Origin: a virus
Strand: one strand, 5' to 3'
Length of the DNA stretch: 26,796 nt
Virus record (IMG/VR): IMGVR_UViG_3300024343_000097
Location: 1 to 26,796 of that record
The number at the start of each line of letters is the position of its first letter. Position 1 is the stretch's first letter. The translations under genes were made by a program, and so were the position numbers. Below the pieces are notes generated by a model. That model made no database searches. It was not told the DNA's origin and saw nothing but the letters and a program-made list of their open reading frames with translations. This document shows, piece by piece, positions 3,050 through 16,689 of this stretch.

Positions 3050-5038
3050 TCTTGCTAGCCATGAAGTCAAGCCTAATACGCTTATTGCTTTTGCTTCATT
3101 GGTTGGTAGCGAATTAACGAAGTCTTGAAATTTCTTTTTCTTCATTAATCTTTTTTCTAGAATCTCAGCTTTTTTTGCCTGCCCTTTTGCGATAGCGTTT
3201 ATATTACCAAGGAAGTCAGGATCATTTAATACATCCATTGCCGCATCAAACCCTTTGTTTTTTCCTTTCTCTAAGCCAGCAGAGACAACATCACCAATAA
3301 GCCCTGGTAGTTTAGCTAAAAACCTATTTGCCACACCATTAACCACTTTATCTAATACGCCAGCGTTAGCCATTACTTGACCACCAATAGGTGCGGATGA
3401 CTGAGCATTGCGGATTCCGTTTGTTACCTTCCCTAACGCATCAAGCTTAACTGTCAATTCTTTTGGGAGATGATCGTAAAGTTCTTTTTTTAACTTTGTG
3501 TTTTTATTTAGTCCGTTAAACCAATCAGCATACCCAGCAACGTTAAGTTGCTTTTCTTTTCTGCTGCCCATGGTAAATACATCATTAAGGGCTGAAACAA
3601 CAACCTCTTGCTTTCTTCCTTCAGGAACCGAATCCATCAGTTCACTGAATTTTTTATAGTCTCCAGTGGTTAGTTTTTTCATAGCTAATCCCATTTTAGG
3701 CATAAAGGCATCAGTTAAATTTTTACCAAACATCTGTATTGATTTGTCCTCTAATGCCTTTCTTTGTGTGACAAGATCTTTTGCTGCATTCCATGAGTCA
3801 CCCATACCAAACTCGTTAGCGACAATCTCCTGATCATCCGTTAGTTTTGCGTAAATCCTTTTTAGCGCACCAACATCCTCAGATTTGTATTTGTCGCTTT
3901 TCTTTCCGATAGTATTACCAACTTCCTTTCTTATTTTATCAAGCGCGTGATATGTTGCGCCTTTTTCTGACATTGATAACAGTCTTCTTTCTAGTGGGCT
4001 TAACTGTGAAATGTCACCACCTAGATCAGCTAATTCTTGGGTTATATACTCACCCATATTATCCATAGTTGACATTGTTTGCTTTGGTATGCTTTCTTTG
4101 ATGCTATTGTATGCCGTTTCAGTAGTTAAGTTTAAGTTCTCAATAACGCGATCGGCATCATTCGCAAGTGACATTGATAGTGATGATTTATCAGTAGTGC
4201 CGCCAAACTCAGTTATTAAATCATCAGATATTTTTTGCAACTCAGCAACTTGATCAAACTCTTTTTTAGATAAGTCAGAGCCAGGCATCTTTTTAAGTGC
4301 TTGCTCAGTCTCTTGGTACTGCCTATTCTTGCTTGATGCTGATGGTAATCCTTTTTCTTTAGCGCCTAACTCATCCAAAGCTTTAAAAAACTCTGGATCT
4401 GAATCAATCATTGCTGCCAGTCTTTCTTGATCGCCTGATGCCAAAACCTCATCTAACTGTTGCTTTTTTGCTGACTCAGTAAATGCTTTGTTTTTATCCA
4501 GCCCTTTAGGCTCAAACCCTTGTGACACAAAAGACTTTTTCTTTGCTATGTCGTCAGGAGTCATGGGTATAGATTTTTTACCAAGAAAGCTTTTTACACC
4601 CAAAGCCTCCAATGCTGCGGTTGGTAGTGTGTGGGCGATAGTTGCAAGCTCTGCATTTCCTGTGGCATCAAAAACGGCATTGCCAAGACCTTCTTCAACC
4701 CCTTTAAATGCCTCACCTATTGGCTGCATAAACTCACCAACAGCTTGCATTTGCTGCTTTCCTGACTCTGTCCTTGGGGCATAGGTTAATTCTTTTTGCA
4801 TAAATGGTATTAGCGCGGATGGATCACCACCTTTAAATGCCTCATAAGCACCCATGATGCCAGAAATCGGTTCTGCAATAGCCCCACTAGCGATAGTCGC
4901 TCCAACCTCTAAGCCGCCAATAATATCTTCACCAAAAGTGGTTTCTTCTTGTGTTTCTCTTTTGGCTATTTCTGCATCTATAGCCGATAACTTATCTCTT
5001 TTTGCTATTTCTGCATCTATCTCTTGTATAGTTGGCAT
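2999..5038 (-). CDS. Ejection (internal virion) protein, P22 gp16-like by position
   Basis: This is a 679-residue protein expected to sit inside the capsid and be injected with DNA to help genome passage across the cell envelope. It follows gp7-like and gp20-like genes and precedes the tailspike, exactly where P22 gene 16 lies (P22 gp16 is about 609 residues). The N-terminus repeats IDAEIAKR at residues 7-14 and 20-27. A Gly/Ala-rich, partly hydrophobic stretch lies near residues 38-65 (EDIIGGLEVGATIASGAIAE), then a long Lys/Glu-rich helical body. The C-terminus is again basic. The start is ATG after AAAAGG. The previous stop is 2 bases upstream. I infer function mainly from synteny and composition. 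Confidence 0.68.
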   Translation of the reverse strand: MPTIQEIDAEIAKRDKLSAIDAEIAKRETQEETTFGEDIIGGLEVGATIASGAIAEPISGIMGAYEAFKGGDPSALIPFMQKELTYAPRTESGKQQMQAVGEFMQPIGEAFKGVEEGLGNAVFDATGNAELATIAHTLPTAALEALGVKSFLGKKSIPMTPDDIAKKKSFVSQGFEPKGLDKNKAFTESAKKQQLDEVLASGDQERLAAMIDSDPEFFKALDELGAKEKGLPSASSKNRQYQETEQALKKMPGSDLSKKEFDQVAELQKISDDLITEFGGTTDKSSLSMSLANDADRVIENLNLTTETAYNSIKESIPKQTMSTMDNMGEYITQELADLGGDISQLSPLERRLLSMSEKGATYHALDKIRKEVGNTIGKKSDKYKSEDVGALKRIYAKLTDDQEIVANEFGMGDSWNAAKDLVTQRKALEDKSIQMFGKNLTDAFMPKMGLAMKKLTTGDYKKFSELMDSVPEGRKQEVVVSALNDVFTMGSRKEKQLNVAGYADWFNGLNKNTKLKKELYDHLPKELTVKLDALGKVTNGIRNAQSSAPIGGQVMANAGVLDKVVNGVANRFLAKLPGLIGDVVSAGLEKGKNKGFDAAMDVLNDPDFLGNINAIAKGQAKKAEILEKRLMKKKKFQDFVNSLPTNEAKAISVLGLTSWLARSNEQQNEASTPKEVAQ
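4965..5020. repeat. 17-base direct repeat, two copies 39 bases apart
   Basis: GCTATTTCTGCATCTAT occurs at 4965-4981 and 5004-5020. It encodes the two IDAEIAK copies at the N-terminus of the gp16-like protein. The offset is 13 codons, so the repeat keeps frame and looks like an internal duplication of a short helical motif. Confidence 0.8.
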
Positions 5039-5040
5039 AA

Positions 5041-6231
5041 TTAACCTTTTGCTCTAAGTGCTTTTAACTCTTCCAAGCTAAGTTTCGACAAATCAACTTC
5101 GTTATCTTTTTGATTTGATGTTGAAGGGTCTAGCTTGAACCTTTTTTCTATTTGCGGTTTAGCTTTTGACATTTGTTTTTTAACTAGGTTTTTAATTACA
5201 TTCAATGACTTTTTAAAGTCGGCTTCGCTTTGTGCTGTAGTTAGGTTTGACAGCGCTGCACCAAGCTTTTTGCCTTCGTTATCAGACAGGGAGCCAGCCC
5301 CGCCAGCGGATTTGAATTCGCCTATAGCGGTTAGAAAGTTTTGCGCCTCTAGCGTTTCAATTAATGCACCTACACCAGCAGCCTCAGTACCAGCAAAAGG
5401 CTCATCCATCAACCCATATAATGATGAAGCCCCTTTTGCACCGATGGCAGACTCGAAGCCTGGGTGCTTTTCTATTTCAGTAATAAGATCAAGCGTAGAC
5501 TTGCCAGAATCAACAACAGTTTGTGCCGATTCAGATCGTGCTTTTTTAATTTGAAATTGCTTTTCTTCGTTGGCTATTTTTTTGTTTTTTAATTCTGCTA
5601 ATTTGACCGCGCTAGTTTCAGTTTTTAATTTGTTGTCTATCTTTTTGTTTTCTATTTCTGATTTTCTTAAATCTCTATCGATGGCGTTACCTTTTACCAT
5701 CTCTCTTTGGTACTCGGTCATAGGTGTAGCTTCACCACCAAAAAAGCTTTCAGCATATTCTTTACCTTTAACCTGTCCGATTATCGCTTTACGTGCGTTA
5801 ACGTCCATAAAAGAGTTGCGATCATCTTCATCGATATCATAGCGAGGATCATCAATTGCAGCGTTAAACATCGCCTCTTGCTGCTCTTGTGGCGCCAAGT
5901 GCATCTGCTCGATAAATCCAGCGGTATTATTTGCAACCTCACCAGTAAATCTATCTTGCTCGGCTTGCTGTCCTGCCTGCTGTTGCTGCAAATGTTGAGC
6001 AACCATTTGCGCGGCTTGAGGGCTTTTTATCATAAGCTCCTCTAGAGCAACAGGATCTCCACTAATTGCTTGACGCATAAAAGCCTCAACATCTTGCTGT
6101 GATTGCTGCTGCTGATCTTGCTGGCTTGAGCGCTGAATTGCTCCGCCTACTTTTTGCCCTATATCCATCAGAGAGCTACCTATAGTTCTAGAGCTTCTTT
6201 CTAGTGGTGACATATCTATTTGAAAACCCAT
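5041..6231 (-). CDS. Ejection (internal virion) protein, P22 gp20-like by position
   Basis: This is a 396-residue protein between the gp7-like and gp16-like genes, the place of gene 20 in P22. The N-terminal third is extremely glutamine-rich (around residues 35-45 and 80-92), with predicted helices. The middle is Lys/Glu-rich (about residues 185-235). A Gly/Ala-containing stretch follows near 240-325, and the C-terminus ends in a short acidic/basic helix. This composition suits a helical, partly disordered DNA-ejection protein that passes through the portal. AGGAGG lies just before ATG 6231, inside the end of the gp7-like gene, so translation is coupled. Assignment rests on synteny and composition. 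Confidence 0.68.
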   Translation of the reverse strand: MGFQIDMSPLERSSRTIGSSLMDIGQKVGGAIQRSSQQDQQQQSQQDVEAFMRQAISGDPVALEELMIKSPQAAQMVAQHLQQQQAGQQAEQDRFTGEVANNTAGFIEQMHLAPQEQQEAMFNAAIDDPRYDIDEDDRNSFMDVNARKAIIGQVKGKEYAESFFGGEATPMTEYQREMVKGNAIDRDLRKSEIENKKIDNKLKTETSAVKLAELKNKKIANEEKQFQIKKARSESAQTVVDSGKSTLDLITEIEKHPGFESAIGAKGASSLYGLMDEPFAGTEAAGVGALIETLEAQNFLTAIGEFKSAGGAGSLSDNEGKKLGAALSNLTTAQSEADFKKSLNVIKNLVKKQMSKAKPQIEKRFKLDPSTSNQKDNEVDLSKLSLEELKALRAKG

Positions 6232-11295: not shown

Positions 11296-12576
11296 TTAAG
11301 AAGTACCTTCCAACTGAATACCCCAAGATGGGTTAAACGTTGCGAACGTTGGCAAGATATCAAAACGATAACGGTTTTTGTTGCCTAAGCCATCACTAAA
11401 GCGATGAACTCGGATACTAATACCTTTATGATTGATGATATTTGAGTCAATTGAATGCAACTTAGGCAATACAACCGAACCCATACCAACAAAACCTTCG
11501 CAGTATGCAAGTGCCGGACGCTTATCAACTGAAGTCGCGCCATCCAATACTGTTACAGTGTCGCCAGAGGTTAACGCTGCGCTAACAGTGTTATATGCTC
11601 CGTCAGCTTCAAAGATAGCCGCACCACTTACTAATACAGTAGCATTACCTGAACCGTCAGCAGTAACATCAGCTAATACAGTTGCAGTGAATGGAACCGC
11701 AGCACCAGACTTGCGAACAACCTTACCATTACGCATATTTAACAAGCTAGATGAAGGGAATGATAACTGTTGACCGGCTTTAAGTGTGCCAGTAGTAGTT
11801 GTTAGTCCCGTTAATGATAAAGACATTTGATAGCTGTCTTTGTATGTAACATAAGTAGCTGCCGGAGTAGCTGCCAATGTGATACCAGTACCAGGAGCGC
11901 CAGAAGCGTATTCGTCAAGGTTGTTAGTAGTCATAACTTGGTTCAAGCCAGCAAAGCCAGTTTTAATTACCGCATCATTCCACGCTTGATTTACTTCAGG
12001 ATTAACACCTAACTGAGTTTGCAAGTCAGCAAGAACAGTTTCATCAAAAGAATTGATAGCTGCATACTTCTTACCAGCAGGGGCACCAATTTCTTTAAAT
12101 AATGCGCCAGCGTTAGCAACATCAGACCACTTGGTAATTGCAGTTCCAGCAGTACCAGAGTGTAACTGAGCGTTACGTGTCATGTACTGAGCTAGTTCGC
12201 TTTCACAAGTAATAACCATATCTTCAGCGATTGGCATTAGTAACGCGTCAAGTTGATCAGTTTCTAAAGCTTCTTCGACTTGAGTGTTTTCAACGTAAAC
12301 AGTAATGTAACCATTAGCTGAAACATGACCGTAAACAGAGCCAACTTGTACAGGGTTTGCAGTTGTTGACGTTAAATCACCATCTGCTGAACGTACAGGC
12401 TTGTATTGTGTAGGGCGCTTCATCTTAACAGGTGTAGCACCTGCACCAGTTGATGCGTCAAGATCATTTACTAACTGCTTTGAAACAGTATTTAGTAAAA
12501 CCGTAGAGGATTCAAACCCCTTAATAAAGCTGCGTAGCAACTTCTCATTGGTATTGCTTTGGTAATTATTAGCCAT
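11296..12576 (-). CDS. Major capsid (coat) protein, P22-type
   Basis: This is a 426-residue protein, near the 430 of P22 coat, placed immediately after scaffold. The N-terminal arm (MANNYQSNTNEKLL), the helix-rich segment EEALETDQLDALLMPIAEDM, and the central inserted beta domain around residues 230-345 (KDSYQMSLSLTGLTTTTGTLKAGQQLSF, SGAAIFEADGAYNTV) fit the P22 coat with its inserted I-domain. Residues 350-420 supply the final strands of the HK97-type fold (AYCEGFVGMGSVVLPKL, ISIRVHRFSDG). AAGGAAA precedes ATG 12576. A strong terminator follows. Coat is the most expressed virion gene, in line with its close promoter and terminator. Confidence 0.8.
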   Translation of the reverse strand: MANNYQSNTNEKLLRSFIKGFESSTVLLNTVSKQLVNDLDASTGAGATPVKMKRPTQYKPVRSADGDLTSTTANPVQVGSVYGHVSANGYITVYVENTQVEEALETDQLDALLMPIAEDMVITCESELAQYMTRNAQLHSGTAGTAITKWSDVANAGALFKEIGAPAGKKYAAINSFDETVLADLQTQLGVNPEVNQAWNDAVIKTGFAGLNQVMTTNNLDEYASGAPGTGITLAATPAATYVTYKDSYQMSLSLTGLTTTTGTLKAGQQLSFPSSSLLNMRNGKVVRKSGAAVPFTATVLADVTADGSGNATVLVSGAAIFEADGAYNTVSAALTSGDTVTVLDGATSVDKRPALAYCEGFVGMGSVVLPKLHSIDSNIINHKGISIRVHRFSDGLGNKNRYRFDILPTFATFNPSWGIQLEGTS

Positions 12577-12592: not shown

Positions 12593-13402
12593 TTAAATTA
12601 TAACTGCACCGGGGTATTTTTTGCTGAAATCATCAGTGTCAACATACCCACCAGCACCTTTAACTTCAGGTATTGGGTCTGGTGCGCCAGATACTTTTGG
12701 AGTTTGCGACAAAACTTTTGGCTTAATCTCGGTGGCAATGCGTATACCAGCAGATACAGGATCTAGCGCTAGTATTTCGTGCATTTCAGCAGGATTATCA
12801 TTTAGATACTCCACTATCTTAGCTCCGTTGTTATCATTCATTAAATATGAACCTAACTCATTACCAAGACCAGCTTGTTTAAGCGTTCGCTCTGCAACTA
12901 GCAATTTGTCAAAATCTACACCATCGCGTGTTGCGTTTGCTGCGTACTTATCTAAATTAACTTGATGTTTTGCGTTTGCTTCTTGTTGCTTACTCGCTTG
13001 TTGTTGGGATTCAAATTGAGACTTTGCGAACCTTTCAGCAGTCGAAGTATTATATACTTGACTATCCTCATGGTATTTCCGCATAGCTTCTTCATCGTAA
13101 ATATCTTCGGGCAATACTGGAGCAGATAAAGACTGCTCTGGTTGTGGCACTGGCGTTTGATTGGCTTGGTTAGCTTCGTATTCTGCTAATTTTGCTTCAG
13201 CCTCGTTTGCTCTTCGCTCTTCTTTGTATCGTTTTGCCGTTAAATCATTAATACGATTTTGAACACCATTTGATTTTGATTCGTGTTGTTCTTCACTAGC
13301 AGGAGATGATTCTGCAATAACTTCAGGTTGTGCTACTTCTTCTGTAACTTGATCACTTGTTACGGCTGGCATAACTATACCTTCGTTTGTTTCATCTGAC
13401 AT
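12593..13402 (-). CDS. Scaffolding protein
   Basis: This is a 269-residue, mostly helical, highly charged protein immediately before coat, as P22 gp8 is (303 residues). Residues 40-75 are Lys/Glu-rich (RINDLTAKRYKEERRANEAEAKLAEYEANQ, coiled-coil-like). Residues 75-95 are Pro-rich. Residues 120-160 are Gln/Ser/Ala-rich. The C-terminal tail ends in a short hydrophobic cap (KKYPGAVII). It directs coat assembly and leaves the procapsid. The strong upstream AAAGGGTGAGAAC-ATG and a promoter at 13465 support high expression. No serine protease motif is seen. Confidence 0.72.
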   Translation of the reverse strand: MSDETNEGIVMPAVTSDQVTEEVAQPEVIAESSPASEEQHESKSNGVQNRINDLTAKRYKEERRANEAEAKLAEYEANQANQTPVPQPEQSLSAPVLPEDIYDEEAMRKYHEDSQVYNTSTAERFAKSQFESQQQASKQQEANAKHQVNLDKYAANATRDGVDFDKLLVAERTLKQAGLGNELGSYLMNDNNGAKIVEYLNDNPAEMHEILALDPVSAGIRIATEIKPKVLSQTPKVSGAPDPIPEVKGAGGYVDTDDFSKKYPGAVII

Positions 13403-13464
13403 GTTCTCACCCTTTGGCGTATTTAAGCATTAACTTTAATAGGTGTTAAGGAAACCTTGTGGTC

Positions 13465-13494
13465 ATTATAACTAATTATTAGTCAAAAATACAA
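13465..13494 (-). promoter_or_regulatory. Promoter of scaffold-coat operon
   Basis: On the - strand, a perfect TATAAT (13465-13470) is preceded at 18 bases by TTGTAT (13489-13494), a partial -35. It lies downstream of the 13525 terminator and 63 bases upstream of the scaffold start. A second possible -35, TTGACT, is only 10 bases from the -10 and is rejected on spacing. Confidence 0.55.
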
Positions 13495-13524
13495 CTTAGT
13501 TAAATACACTAAATTTTAGGCAAT

Positions 13525-13547
13525 AAAAAACCACTCGCTAAAGTGGC
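13525..13547 (-). terminator. Terminator of the small-gene cassette
   Basis: On the - strand CCACT TTAGCG AGTGG forms a 5-base stem with a 6-base loop, extended by G-C context, then TTTTTT. It lies 15 bases past the stop of the last cassette gene (13562). It separates the cassette from the scaffold promoter. Confidence 0.7.
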
Positions 13548-13561
13548 TTGATGATGGGTAG

Positions 13562-13756
13562 TTATTCGCATTTGTGTTTGTGCTTATCGTAAGCGCCACC
13601 CCAAAAGGCTACTCTTTTCTTTGCCTTTGTATTCTCTTTAGTATCATCCATGGACTTAAACAGCCAGTGCAGCCCCATACCCAAGCAGTAACCTTCGAAT
13701 TGCTCTTTGGTTAGGTTTAATGCTATGCGCTCAATGTTATTCTTGCACTCCATCAT
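13562..13756 (-). CDS. Hypothetical protein, last cassette gene
   Basis: This is a 64-residue ORF with no recognised family. It is lysine- and histidine-rich at the C-terminus (AFWGGAYDKHKHKCE) and has KNNIERIALNLTKEQFEGYCLGMGLHWL at the front, including two Cys. Two consecutive ATGs open it, and the second at 13753 fits GGTGA at 6 bases better, while the first overlaps the upstream stop as ATGA. It looks soluble and small, as many anti-host or superinfection factors are, but no function is assigned. Confidence 0.5.
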   Translation of the reverse strand: MMECKNNIERIALNLTKEQFEGYCLGMGLHWLFKSMDDTKENTKAKKRVAFWGGAYDKHKHKCE

Positions 13757-13947
13757 AAGTCACCATTCTCAGATAAAACCAAAGCATCATCAATAACCAC
13801 TCGGTTATTACCATGACCAATCAGCAAAAACTCCTCTCTAACCTCACCATTAGTCTCTAACTGCTGAATAATGACACCGTTAGCTTTAGCTTCCTTTAAT
13901 ACCTCTGCTCGCTTGTGAGTAAGGTCGCTTGATTTATATTTTTTCAT
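13753..13947 (-). CDS. Hypothetical protein, possible Phd/YefM-like fold
   Basis: This is a 64-residue ORF. KKYKSSDLTHKRAEVLKEAKANGVIIQQ resembles the start of Phd/YefM antitoxins (a short strand, helix, then a beta strand), and EEFLLIGHGNNRVVIDD would continue the strands. Phd-type proteins are usually paired with a toxin, and no toxin partner such as Doc or YoeB is recognised next to it, so a stand-alone DNA-binding role or an anti-toxin decoy are both possible. AGAGGTG precedes ATG 13947. The start overlaps the upstream stop by 14 bases. Confidence 0.4.
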   Translation of the reverse strand: MKKYKSSDLTHKRAEVLKEAKANGVIIQQLETNGEVREEFLLIGHGNNRVVIDDALVLSENGDL

Positions 13948-14260
13948 TAGCGAACACCTCTACCAGTTCGTTTAACTCAGACGACGCCCAGCCCTCATTG
14001 CGCGGGCCGCAATCACAATGATCATCAAGTACATCTTGTAGTTTTTCTAACTGGTTATCGGTAAGTGTAAATAGATTACCCTTCTTTACTATCTTGAAAT
14101 ACGTATTGTCGATAACACAATTAGGTAACGCATTTACCTTGGGTTCACCACTGGACTGTATGTCTTCACGCTTATATGCATTCTTTAGTTCGCCAGCCTT
14201 TTCAATGTTAAACCCTTGAGCCTCGATAAAAGCCCTTAATAGTTTTTCTGTGTTATTCAT
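13934..14260 (-). CDS. Hypothetical protein, first major cassette gene
   Basis: This is a 108-residue ORF of unknown function. It has an amphipathic N-terminus (NNTEKLLRAFIEAQGFNIEKAG), a central beta-like segment (YFKIVKKGNLFTL) and an acidic helical C-terminus (NELVEVFANE) with CDCG near residue 85. No membrane segment. I start at ATG 14260 rather than an upstream ATG at 14302, because a GGG-containing site lies about 10 bases upstream and the extra 14 residues overlap a coupled leader ORF. The leader stop (14263) is separated by 2 bases from this ATG (TAGTGATG), a strong sign of coupling. Confidence 0.5.
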   Translation of the reverse strand: MNNTEKLLRAFIEAQGFNIEKAGELKNAYKREDIQSSGEPKVNALPNCVIDNTYFKIVKKGNLFTLTDNQLEKLQDVLDDHCDCGPRNEGWASSELNELVEVFANEKI

Positions 14261-14262
14261 CA

Positions 14263-14325
14263 CTAAACCGCCCTTAAAGCAAATACGTAAAGAGCCAACC
14301 AAAACAAGATTTTTTCAACATTCAT
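14263..14325 (-). CDS. 20-residue hydrophobic leader peptide ORF
   Basis: ATG 14325 is preceded by AAGAGA. The peptide is 20 residues with a hydrophobic core (ILFWLALYVFAL) and small polar ends, so it would insert in membrane. It is the first ORF after the strong promoter at 14361, and its stop sits 2 bases from the next start. It could be a coupled leader, a small membrane effector or a type I toxin-like peptide. Short length makes it uncertain. Confidence 0.35.
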   Translation of the reverse strand: MNVEKILFWLALYVFALRAV

Positions 14326-14360
14326 AACAGATCTCTTTTTTAATTAAAATTAGTTTTAAT

Positions 14361-14389
14361 AATATAGTAAAATAAAAGGCATGTGTCAA
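14361..14389 (-). promoter_or_regulatory. Strong sigma70 promoter of the small-gene cassette
   Basis: On the - strand a perfect TTGACA (14384-14389) and TATATT (14361-14366) are 17 bases apart, the best consensus promoter in the window. The -35 lies entirely within the 7-base loop of the terminator hairpin at 14375-14397, so one 23-base element serves to end one transcript and begin the next. The predicted start is around 14354, leaving a leader of about 30 bases before the peptide ORF. Confidence 0.8.
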
Positions 14390-14397
14390 ATGCCTTT
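14371..14397 (-). terminator. Terminator whose loop carries the -35 box
   Basis: AAAGGCAT at one arm and ATGCCTTT at the other form a perfect 8-base stem with the 7-base loop TTGACAC (- strand), followed by TATTTT. It lies just past the stop of the 60-residue gene (14404). The A-run on the far side may let it act bidirectionally. Confidence 0.6.
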
Positions 14398-14403
14398 GGT
14401 TAT

Positions 14404-14586
14404 TTATTGAATAGTTTCTACAATCAATCCTTCGTCTTTTATTCCTGTAATAATAAACTCTGCTGATGCTGCACCGTCAATCATTAGATCTATACGAGAA
14501 TAAACTTCGTACATATCTTCGGCAGTTACCCAGTACTCTTCACCGGGTAACTTATAGCCTTGGATTGCTATTAATTTCTCACTCAC
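14404..14586 (-). CDS. Hypothetical acidic protein following portal
   Basis: This is a 60-residue acidic ORF with no recognised family. Alternating hydrophobic residues (KLIAIQGYKL, EYWVTAEDMYEVYSRIDLMIDG, AEFIITGIKDEGLIVETIQ) suggest a small alpha/beta fold. It overlaps the portal stop by 8 bases and is the last gene before a terminator. It might be a minor virion factor or a moron at the end of the packaging operon. Confidence 0.5.
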   Translation of the reverse strand: MSEKLIAIQGYKLPGEEYWVTAEDMYEVYSRIDLMIDGAASAEFIITGIKDEGLIVETIQ

Positions 14587-16678
14587 TAGCTGTTTGCAGG
14601 TTCGCGGTTATATTTGCGTTCTGCTCCTGTTGCGTTTGAAATTCTAACTCAGCAATAGCGATAGCATTTTTCATAAACTTATCTTTAGCATCGTTATTGA
14701 TCTTTTCTTGATTCTGCTCAAGTTTACGCGCATTAGTTAAAATGTCGCTTTGTAGTTTAGCGCCTTTACCTTCTGCTTCGGTTATTGCTTTGGCGGTATC
14801 AAGCTCTAATTGTTTGCTTTTGTTCTGATGTGACATAGCGATATTTTCTTCTTTCATTCGCTCTAGCATTACAGCAGGGTCTTCGGGTTGTGGTTGTTGT
14901 GCCGCTTGTTGTGCTGCTGCTACTTCTTCGTCAGTCATTTGATCTTCAGGTATCATGCCTGCCTGCAATAACTGCGCTCGCTTACGTGCTGCCATTTCAT
15001 CCATTAAGGGGGCATCAATACTCTTAAGCATTAAATCACCACCAGTATTAACAATAGACGGGTCGATAGCTGCATAGTTAAGCATTGCAGACAAGCCAGC
15101 TTCCATTTTGTTGGCGAATGCAGGCCCAGCATCACAAAATACTTTATACTCACCTTTGTTTAATGTGTTAACTCTTACCATTGTTTGTGTTTGAGTGTCG
15201 TACACCTCATCGTTAAGCGTAACCATTTCCTCCGAACCGTCTTGACCTAGAATCATAAATTGTTGCTTGGTGTCATAAACTGGAGGGATAGTTTGCACTA
15301 GTATTTCACACGTTCGCTTAATACCATTGACCAAGGCATTAACCCATTTACGCGTTGCGCCAGTACCGCGATCTATTTGCATTCTTAAAGCATCTTCAGA
15401 CATTCTTGCTGCATACTGTCCATTCATAGCATTGTTTGTGCCTCCAGTGGTTTGCATCCCTATTGCCATGTCATTAGCTAAATTTGCTAGATTAGGGTTG
15501 ACCTGTGCGCCTCCTATTTCTTGAACTCCAGCAGTCCATTCATTATCAGGATTAACAAATAAAACAGGGTCAGCACTGACGTTTAATGCTGCTATTTGCT
15601 TTTCATTACCTTTAGCCATTTTTTTTGTCATTACTAGCTTTTTGCGTGGAGCTAATGCGCCTTCTTCAATCTCGCGTGATTTAGCGTAATTAAATACTCG
15701 CTGGTAATCCATTTCTTTTAGTGTAATGCCCGAGTAAGTGATCTTAGAGTTTTCGCCAAGTAATTCAAAGTTACCGTAAACAGTTACTACCGGTAAAGTT
15801 CTGAATACTGTTTCGCGTTCTTCTGATAGTATTCCACCACCATCAAAGAATCTATGATATATTTTAAAGTCTTTTACTTTCTTTTCACGAACAACCTTTA
15901 CACCTTGTGCTAAATACTCATCAACAACCTTTTTAAAGTTCTCGTCCTTTTCCACAATTTCACCATTAGATAATTGGCATACTTCGCGGATAGTTTCTTT
16001 TTTGTAATACCGTTCACCAAATATAATCACTTCAGGTCTATATTGATCGTAATGCTCACCCAGATCAGCATCATCAATACTCACCATTAAACCTTCTGGG
16101 AATTGCTCTTTGTACGCTTCAGGTGTAACTGATGTTAAAACGTAAGCAACATCACTATCTGAACTATCAGCCTTTGATGATGTGTTTGAAGTCCACACAC
16201 GGTTTATGGCATTAGGTATTGCCTCAACAGCTAAGCTTTGATCGAAACTCCATTCATTTTTAAATTTAGCTTTGATTATCCATGCATCAAAACCTCTACG
16301 AATTAATCTACGGCAAGCGTTACGGTAGATAGAAGTTGCATCTGAATCAGCTTCAATACTTCTTACCATGCCCTCATAAGTTTTGGCTAACTCTTTGGTT
16401 GCCTCGCCTGAAGCTGGCTTGACATTAGAGCCGAATTCCATATCTTCAATATCAGCCATGATGTTTTCTATAACTGGCGTAACTTGATCGAATGTATAGC
16501 GAGGTCTTTTCTGTGAATCTAAAGAGCGAGCGACGGATTCTTCCCATTGTCCATCTTTATCAAGTAAGAACCTGTCACATTCTCGCGCCTGTTGACGTTG
16601 GTCAAGGTCTGATTGCTGAAAGTCACTTAATTGATTCAACCAAGTTAAGTGCTCGTTATTATCTTTTTTATCTACCAT
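14579..16678 (-). CDS. Portal protein, P22-type
   Basis: This is a 699-residue protein, close to the 725 of P22 gp1. It forms the dodecameric ring through which DNA is packaged and ejected. N-terminal features match: WLNQLSDFQQSDLDQRQQARECDRFLLDKDGQWEE, KRPRYTFDQVTPVIENIMADI and the EGMVRSIEADSDATSIYRNACRRLI helix. A wing/crown domain and a long, Gln-rich C-terminal helix (residues about 585-699, EDPAVMLERMKEENIAM) follow, comparable to the P22 barrel. ATG 16678 is chosen over a TTG at 16684 because AAGGG precedes at 7 bases. It follows TerL at an 11-base gap. Confidence 0.85.
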   Translation of the reverse strand: MVDKKDNNEHLTWLNQLSDFQQSDLDQRQQARECDRFLLDKDGQWEESVARSLDSQKRPRYTFDQVTPVIENIMADIEDMEFGSNVKPASGEATKELAKTYEGMVRSIEADSDATSIYRNACRRLIRRGFDAWIIKAKFKNEWSFDQSLAVEAIPNAINRVWTSNTSSKADSSDSDVAYVLTSVTPEAYKEQFPEGLMVSIDDADLGEHYDQYRPEVIIFGERYYKKETIREVCQLSNGEIVEKDENFKKVVDEYLAQGVKVVREKKVKDFKIYHRFFDGGGILSEERETVFRTLPVVTVYGNFELLGENSKITYSGITLKEMDYQRVFNYAKSREIEEGALAPRKKLVMTKKMAKGNEKQIAALNVSADPVLFVNPDNEWTAGVQEIGGAQVNPNLANLANDMAIGMQTTGGTNNAMNGQYAARMSEDALRMQIDRGTGATRKWVNALVNGIKRTCEILVQTIPPVYDTKQQFMILGQDGSEEMVTLNDEVYDTQTQTMVRVNTLNKGEYKVFCDAGPAFANKMEAGLSAMLNYAAIDPSIVNTGGDLMLKSIDAPLMDEMAARKRAQLLQAGMIPEDQMTDEEVAAAQQAAQQPQPEDPAVMLERMKEENIAMSHQNKSKQLELDTAKAITEAEGKGAKLQSDILTNARKLEQNQEKINNDAKDKFMKNAIAIAELEFQTQQEQNANITANLQTASE

Positions 16679-16689
16679 CGTCAAACCCT

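Follow-up and report, generated by a model that had tools for sequence, protein, structure and literature searches.

A moron with a conserved, probably self-repressed control frame and changing cargo at the portal-scaffold junction of P22-like podophages

The window analysed here, meaning the whole stretch of 26,796 bases of IMGVR_UViG_3300024343_000097, is part of the genome of a P22-like podophage, and a nearest-neighbour DNA search of a phage collection found no match to it. Its genes follow the P22 order, namely terminase, portal, scaffold, coat, head-tail connectors, DNA-ejection proteins and a tail fibre/spike-like protein, with genes for NinB, NinG and a RecE-like exonuclease upstream. 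A preliminary description of the window had proposed a moron between portal and scaffold, made up of four small ORFs with their own promoter and terminator, and all of these parts are indeed present. In addition, a 60-aa ORF that had been missed is recognised in the portal/cassette interval, and at least nine close relatives carry it with 58-82% identity. The features are as follows.

14579-16684, minus strand: portal gene (Pfam P22_portal match, 6e-109)
14404-14586, minus strand: 60-aa ORF, the final gene ahead of the insertion
14375-14397, minus strand: terminator-type hairpin AAAGGCAT-TTGACAC-ATGCCTTT, then TATTTTA (dG -8.0, z -3.1)
14361-14389, minus strand: cassette promoter TTGACA-17 bp-TATATT, at the same position in relatives
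14344-14359, minus strand: candidate palindromic operator TTAAAACTAATTTTAA, overlapping the presumed start site
14263-14325, minus strand: 20-aa hydrophobic peptide MNVEKILFWLALYVFALRAV (an ORF call; the ORF itself is not conserved)
13934-14260, minus strand: 108-aa cargo protein of a modular family (MNN.EK.L.A.I.A.GF)
13753-13947, minus strand: 64-aa protein of predicted Phd/YefM fold, the proposed autorepressor, its start overlapping the 108-aa ORF
13562-13756, minus strand: 64-aa Lys/His-rich cargo protein, a relative of T7-type gp1.7 (C-terminal part)
13528-13549, minus strand: closing terminator AAGCCACTT-TAGC-GAGTGGTTT with T tail (dG -9.6 kcal/mol, z -3.1)
12593-13402, minus strand: scaffold gene (PHROG scaffold family match, 5e-24)
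11296-12576, minus strand: coat gene (Pfam P22_CoatProtein match, 6e-48)

Portal, scaffold and coat searches of IMG/VR provided 49 related loci (L002-L050) for comparison. Where both flanks are available (19 loci), portal and scaffold are separated by 75 to 3,641 bp, and the genes inside this gap differ almost completely between relatives, which clearly do not all carry the same set. Two loci, L015 and L016, present an empty site, where the stop of the 60-aa ORF runs directly into the scaffold promoter, and their flanks are nearly identical to those on either side of the 1.5-kb cassette of L003. The insertion is likewise missing in Sf6 (gap of 13 bp) and in the Vibrio phages 234P9 (about 115 bp) and 1.183.O (about 92 bp). 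This presence and absence at one and the same junction bears out the insertion that the preliminary description had proposed, and the portal-scaffold block is, as judged from the comparison of loci, a moron.

The cassette promoter is one of two 11/12 consensus matches in the whole window. Overall, the region is not enriched for such signals (17 promoter-like sites against 22.7 expected and 8 terminator-like sites against 6.2 expected), and thus it is conservation in relatives that provides real evidence for them. Such conservation is found: in relatives, directly after the 60-aa ORF, a hairpin with the loop TTGACAC is followed by a T-rich tail and then by TATATT, so that the -35 box is the hairpin loop and the T-tract is part of the promoter spacer, an arrangement missed in the earlier reading. 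The motif TTGACAC-N13-15-ACTATATT has no match in 100 shuffles. Among 21 distinct stem sequences, seven of the eight pairs are changed on both sides while the loop is nearly constant, and the covariation of the stem (0.59, against 0.17 +/- 0.03 in shuffles) is lost when the partners are slid. The structure is therefore kept and the sequence is not, which argues for an RNA hairpin, i.e. a terminator, rather than a protein site; a protein-binding palindrome was rejected here because the stem varies freely and is unrelated to the regulator type (r = 0.05, see below). We infer that the hairpin at 14375-14397 acts as a terminator, which should shield the cassette from late transcription arriving from upstream. 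The closing terminators stand at the same position in relatives with other stems. The cassette's own promoter and terminator, as proposed before, are thus recognisable by sequence and conserved.

In the closing terminators (window 13525-13549 and about 25 relatives), the loop is nearly constant, being TTAACT, TTAATT, TTAACC or TTTAAC over the varying stems, which is perhaps a habit of the host lineage. Motif matches in L055, L066 and L068 have no hairpin and were discarded as chance, and a distant blastn search with the promoter element in isolated phages gave AT-rich matches only, probably by chance as well.

Located 3' of the -10 box is a second element missed in the earlier reading, a palindrome with a CTAA centre and arms that covary pairwise, which we regard as the candidate operator. 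Its core, AAAACTAATTTT, has a single site in the window when one mismatch is allowed. The type TTAAAA-CTAA-TTTTAA is shared by the window and about 20 other loci; the others are CTGA-CTAA-TCAG, TGAA-CTAA-TTCA (L010), TTAGA-CTTAA-TCTAA (L018), TAGGA-TTAA-TTCTA (L044) and TTAGAA-TTAG-TTCTAA (L111). The centre reads CTAA in most loci and TTAG in L002 and L111, and its occurrence in both orientations points to a dyad-symmetric protein site; for the same reason, an RNA hairpin was rejected for this element. A motif search with the centre fixed and the arms free picked out 20 stretches, and a Phd-like gene lies downstream in each of those that include the hairpin and are long enough.

This Phd-like gene is the one gene common to all cassettes, and a search with its alignment yields 48 viral loci, while tblastn of the protein in isolated phages gives no match at E <= 1. 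From 21 sequences, AlphaFold2 predicts a strand-helix-helix-strand-strand order with pLDDT of about 88 over residues 1-40, followed by a disordered tail. Comparison of the profile with PDB sequences gave nothing meaningful, and fold comparison was used instead: the first 13 Foldseek matches in PDB are all Phd/YefM-family members, with the DNA-binding domain of P1 Phd at the top (probability 0.99, E 0.09). Pfam PF02604 (Phd/YefM) is matched from position 1 but below its gathering cut-off (at best 14.9 against 29.8 bits); such weak E-values and a sub-threshold score are expected for a domain of 43 residues. The Phd/YefM-like character noticed in the preliminary description is therefore supported by a predicted N-terminal beta-alpha-beta-beta DNA-binding fold. 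Residues 1-43 are conserved and the C-terminal tail is variable, the N-domain being under purifying selection (type A pN/pS 0.27, type B 0.19). The tails are also swapped between types, as the tails of L003 (type B) and L090 (type A) are 82% identical and their N-domains 37%.

The types of regulator and operator go together. Type A regulators (SDLTHKR) are paired with the AAA-CTAA operator in 20 of 21 cases, L091, L102 and L120 being three additional matches and L096, with a deviant operator, the exception; type B regulators (SDLSKKP) are paired with CTGA-CTAA-TCAG in all six, and type C occurs only with its own type, the typing leaving the L106/L109/L113 type and L101/L103/L112 with no assigned operator. 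Over 34 loci, the more alike two regulators are in residues 4-43, the more alike are their operators (r = 0.73, permutation p = 5e-5, a nominal value that overstates independence because the loci are related), and the arms of the adjacent hairpin show no such correlation (r = 0.05, p = 0.29). Simple linkage is disfavoured as the cause, because a linked hairpin would have tracked the regulator as well; moreover, the regulator gene lies 69 to 1,398 bp from the promoter, and the genes in the interval are exchanged. By sequence, the protein thus behaves as an autoregulator would, its own promoter carrying a putative operator whose type follows that of the regulator, and the operator's position favours repression over activation.

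The remaining genes are regarded as cargo. Simple ORF calling in 35 cassettes plus their downstream flank gives 153 ORFs, which group into 82 clusters (64 singletons) and include some structural genes or chance ORFs. In a sample of 32 cargo proteins, the domains recognised are YopX, HNH endonuclease, DUF3307, DUF7336 and P22 NinX; apart from a homing endonuclease, a defence-library scan of the cargo gave just one type I specificity match, a weak one. The 108-aa family is present in 14 of the 35 cassettes, often directly upstream of the regulator gene; the protein has no confident family or fold match, its model having a pTM of 0.35 and meaningless PDB matches. The 20-aa hydrophobic peptide is plausibly a small membrane cargo gene, and unrelated hydrophobic ORFs of 27-40 aa recur in other cassettes. 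The Lys/His-rich protein matches phrog_2585 (8.6e-8, profile positions 112-170 of 175), and tblastn with it matches 901 phage records; relatives also occur in L010 and L012. It is, on this profile similarity, a diverged relative of T7-type gp1.7, corresponding to the C-terminal part of that protein. The similarity to T7 gp1.7, annotated as a nucleotide kinase, covers nearly the whole cargo protein, from which the N-terminal two thirds of gp1.7 are absent, and the GN-LKY motif of K1F gp1.7 is GM-LHW in the window; with that part missing and the motif changed, kinase activity is not to be assumed. Overall, the cargo probably consists of a varying set of small proteins for host takeover or phage competition, and it may act in superinfection exclusion or anti-defence, as the preliminary description had considered.

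In L090, a cargo gene resembling HNH homing endonucleases lies about 65 bp after the promoter, and it could contribute to the spread of the cassette.

The control parts recur in phages whose portals are only 22-29% identical. In L062, with a portal 29% identical, promoter and operator are 97% identical over 67 bp and the regulator gene is 90% identical over 125 bp, and in L051 and L110 the frame of promoter, operator and regulator immediately precedes terS. These cases suggest that recombination moves the frame from phage to phage and from one position to another; no mobilising enzyme is constant among the cassettes.

Taking these together, we consider it likely that the block is a moron built on a standard regulatory chassis, consisting of a promoter within a terminator, an operator, a Phd-fold autorepressor and a closing terminator, which carries swapped cargo and gives an early pulse of expression. 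The promoter would fire on the incoming genome with host RNA polymerase alone, and cargo and regulator would be made early, a timing suggested by promoter strength and the type of cargo. The regulator would then accumulate and bind the operator as a dimer, shutting the promoter and so ending the pulse, while the two terminators would separate the unit from late transcription until late antitermination reads through. A broader reading, which we put forward tentatively, is that the frame represents a standard socket for expression, exchanged horizontally among marine podophages, divided into repressor-operator specificity groups and with tails that may serve as interchangeable sensors.

Other readings of the cassette were also considered. 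The preliminary description had left a toxin-antitoxin role open, and a type II system, with the Phd-like protein as antitoxin and the 108-aa (or downstream) ORF as toxin acting in phage stabilisation or exclusion, would suit the predicted fold, the variable tails, which could be toxin-binding arms, and the roughly 12 cassettes in which a gene of the 108-aa family immediately precedes and overlaps the Phd-like gene. We hold it unlikely, however, since the Phd-like gene has no constant partner: the 108-aa family is missing from more than half of the 35 cassettes, the cassette of L018 (285 bp) contains promoter, operator, regulator and terminator only, and the same tail is found on different DNA-binding types (L003 and L090), while the 32 sampled cargo proteins have no toxin family match in Pfam or PADLOC. 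Being present in every cassette, covarying with the operator and standing alone in L018, the protein is most likely the cassette's own repressor and not an antitoxin. A role of this protein as an activator or late repressor of late genes, acting through the embedded terminator-promoter, with a cassette that would mainly tune the expression of scaffold and coat, is suggested by the cassette's place directly upstream of scaffold and by the P22 ant moron, which has been proposed to influence transcription running into the tailspike gene (PMC2629481). Yet the scaffold promoter and gene are intact in cassette-free relatives (L015 and Vibrio phage 234P9), the operator core is unique in the window, and cassettes occur at other late-gene positions, i.e. 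before terS in L051 and L110, and we hold this reading very unlikely.

Expression from a prophage, which the preliminary description had thought possible, is not supported either. An ordinary lysogenic-conversion moron, carrying a gene for superinfection exclusion or fitness, would have its own promoter and terminator, as this one does, and the RecE/RecT- and Nin-type genes recall temperate lambdoid phages. It is nevertheless very unlikely here, because a search of eight related contigs (32-42 kb) for tyrosine integrases gave none, and the 84,980 species genomes scanned contain no relative of the Phd-like or the coat family. In the early half of a 40.5-kb relative, whose translations were judged by eye, there are RecT, exonuclease, SSB and replication genes, with no integrase and no recognisable CI-type repressor; small HTH ORFs do occur. 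The lineage is likely virulent, in which case the independent expression of the preliminary description most likely means expression early in infection. On the whole, its moron reading is retained for the insertion, the own promoter and terminator and the Phd fold, and given up for the prophage and the toxin-antitoxin role.

Among known systems, Arc and Mnt of P22 are ribbon-helix-helix proteins, and their fold is unrelated to the predicted Phd fold of the cassette protein. They belong to the ant moron (immunity I: arc, mnt, ant), whose promoter in the late operon is controlled by small repressors (PMC2629481). Like the cassette, it lies in the late operon and varies in gene content between relatives, and it represses its own promoter, as the cassette probably does (PMC2629481), but it is located upstream of the tailspike gene and not at the portal-scaffold junction. 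In virulent SPP1, a moron segment of ORFs 8-10 is bracketed by transcription signals in the portal/scaffold region, a comparable place; unlike the cassette, that segment holds oriR, belongs to a different host group and has no Phd-like regulator in the description consulted (PMC6316719). P1 Phd and E. coli YefM share with the cassette protein the N-terminal DNA-binding fold and a palindromic operator at their own promoter, both predicted here, while the cassette protein differs in having no toxin partner, short swapped tails and a score below the Pfam threshold. DNA-binding specificity and operator also diversify together in the immunity groups of Cluster A mycobacteriophages (PMC6550527), where the pairs govern lysogeny, whereas the cassette pair seems to govern the moron promoter only.

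In the open-licence literature we found no description of the promoter-in-terminator element, the interchangeable operator types or the whole frame. Morons as such are a known kind of element, usually described singly, while here the frame is conserved and the cargo turns over. The frame can serve as a sequence tag for new accessory genes, with about 80 ORF clusters already, most of them without known function, and the matched repressor-operator types offer a testable specificity code for a DNA-binding domain of 43 residues. If there are indeed several specificity groups, two phages of one group that infect the same cell would shut off each other's cargo genes. The epsilon34 paper asked whether the P22-like capsid cluster tolerates morons at one place only (PMC2629481), and for this lineage the answer is that they are tolerated both at the portal-scaffold junction and before terS.

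Several further observations concern the neighbourhood of the cassette. Four small opposite-strand genes, an independent insertion, lie at the portal-scaffold junction of Pseudoalteromonas phage H6/1 (KX257490.2, L125) at 4789-5478. In the portal/60-aa ORF interval, L003 (5334-7196) and L010 (1005-2492) have a large gene (620 and 495 aa) beginning with MP[IV]V[DN]IKGVG.A.FPDGMS, the L010 version also with a peptidase-like HELQHAIQ motif, and this looks like a second, separate insertion slot. When L006 and L008 are compared with L002-L005, terminase large subunits about 30% and about 90% identical to that of the window stand beside portals that are all about 80% identical, which is, as read from these identities, a sharp mosaicism at the terminase-portal boundary.

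P22 scaffold regulates its own synthesis. In the window, a hairpin in the scaffold leader (13403-13465, minus strand) has a covarying stem (0.69 against 0.21 in shuffles) and the loop CACC(T)AAA, complementary to scaffold's own Shine-Dalgarno sequence AGGTG/GGGTG; it is found at the same place in L003, L005, L009, L010, L012, L014, L021, L022, L023 and L046, and is possibly a translational control element of scaffold. A promoter-like site for scaffold, TTGTAT-18-TATAAT (13470-13503, minus strand), has the palindrome ACTAATAATTAGT in its spacer and is similar in several relatives.
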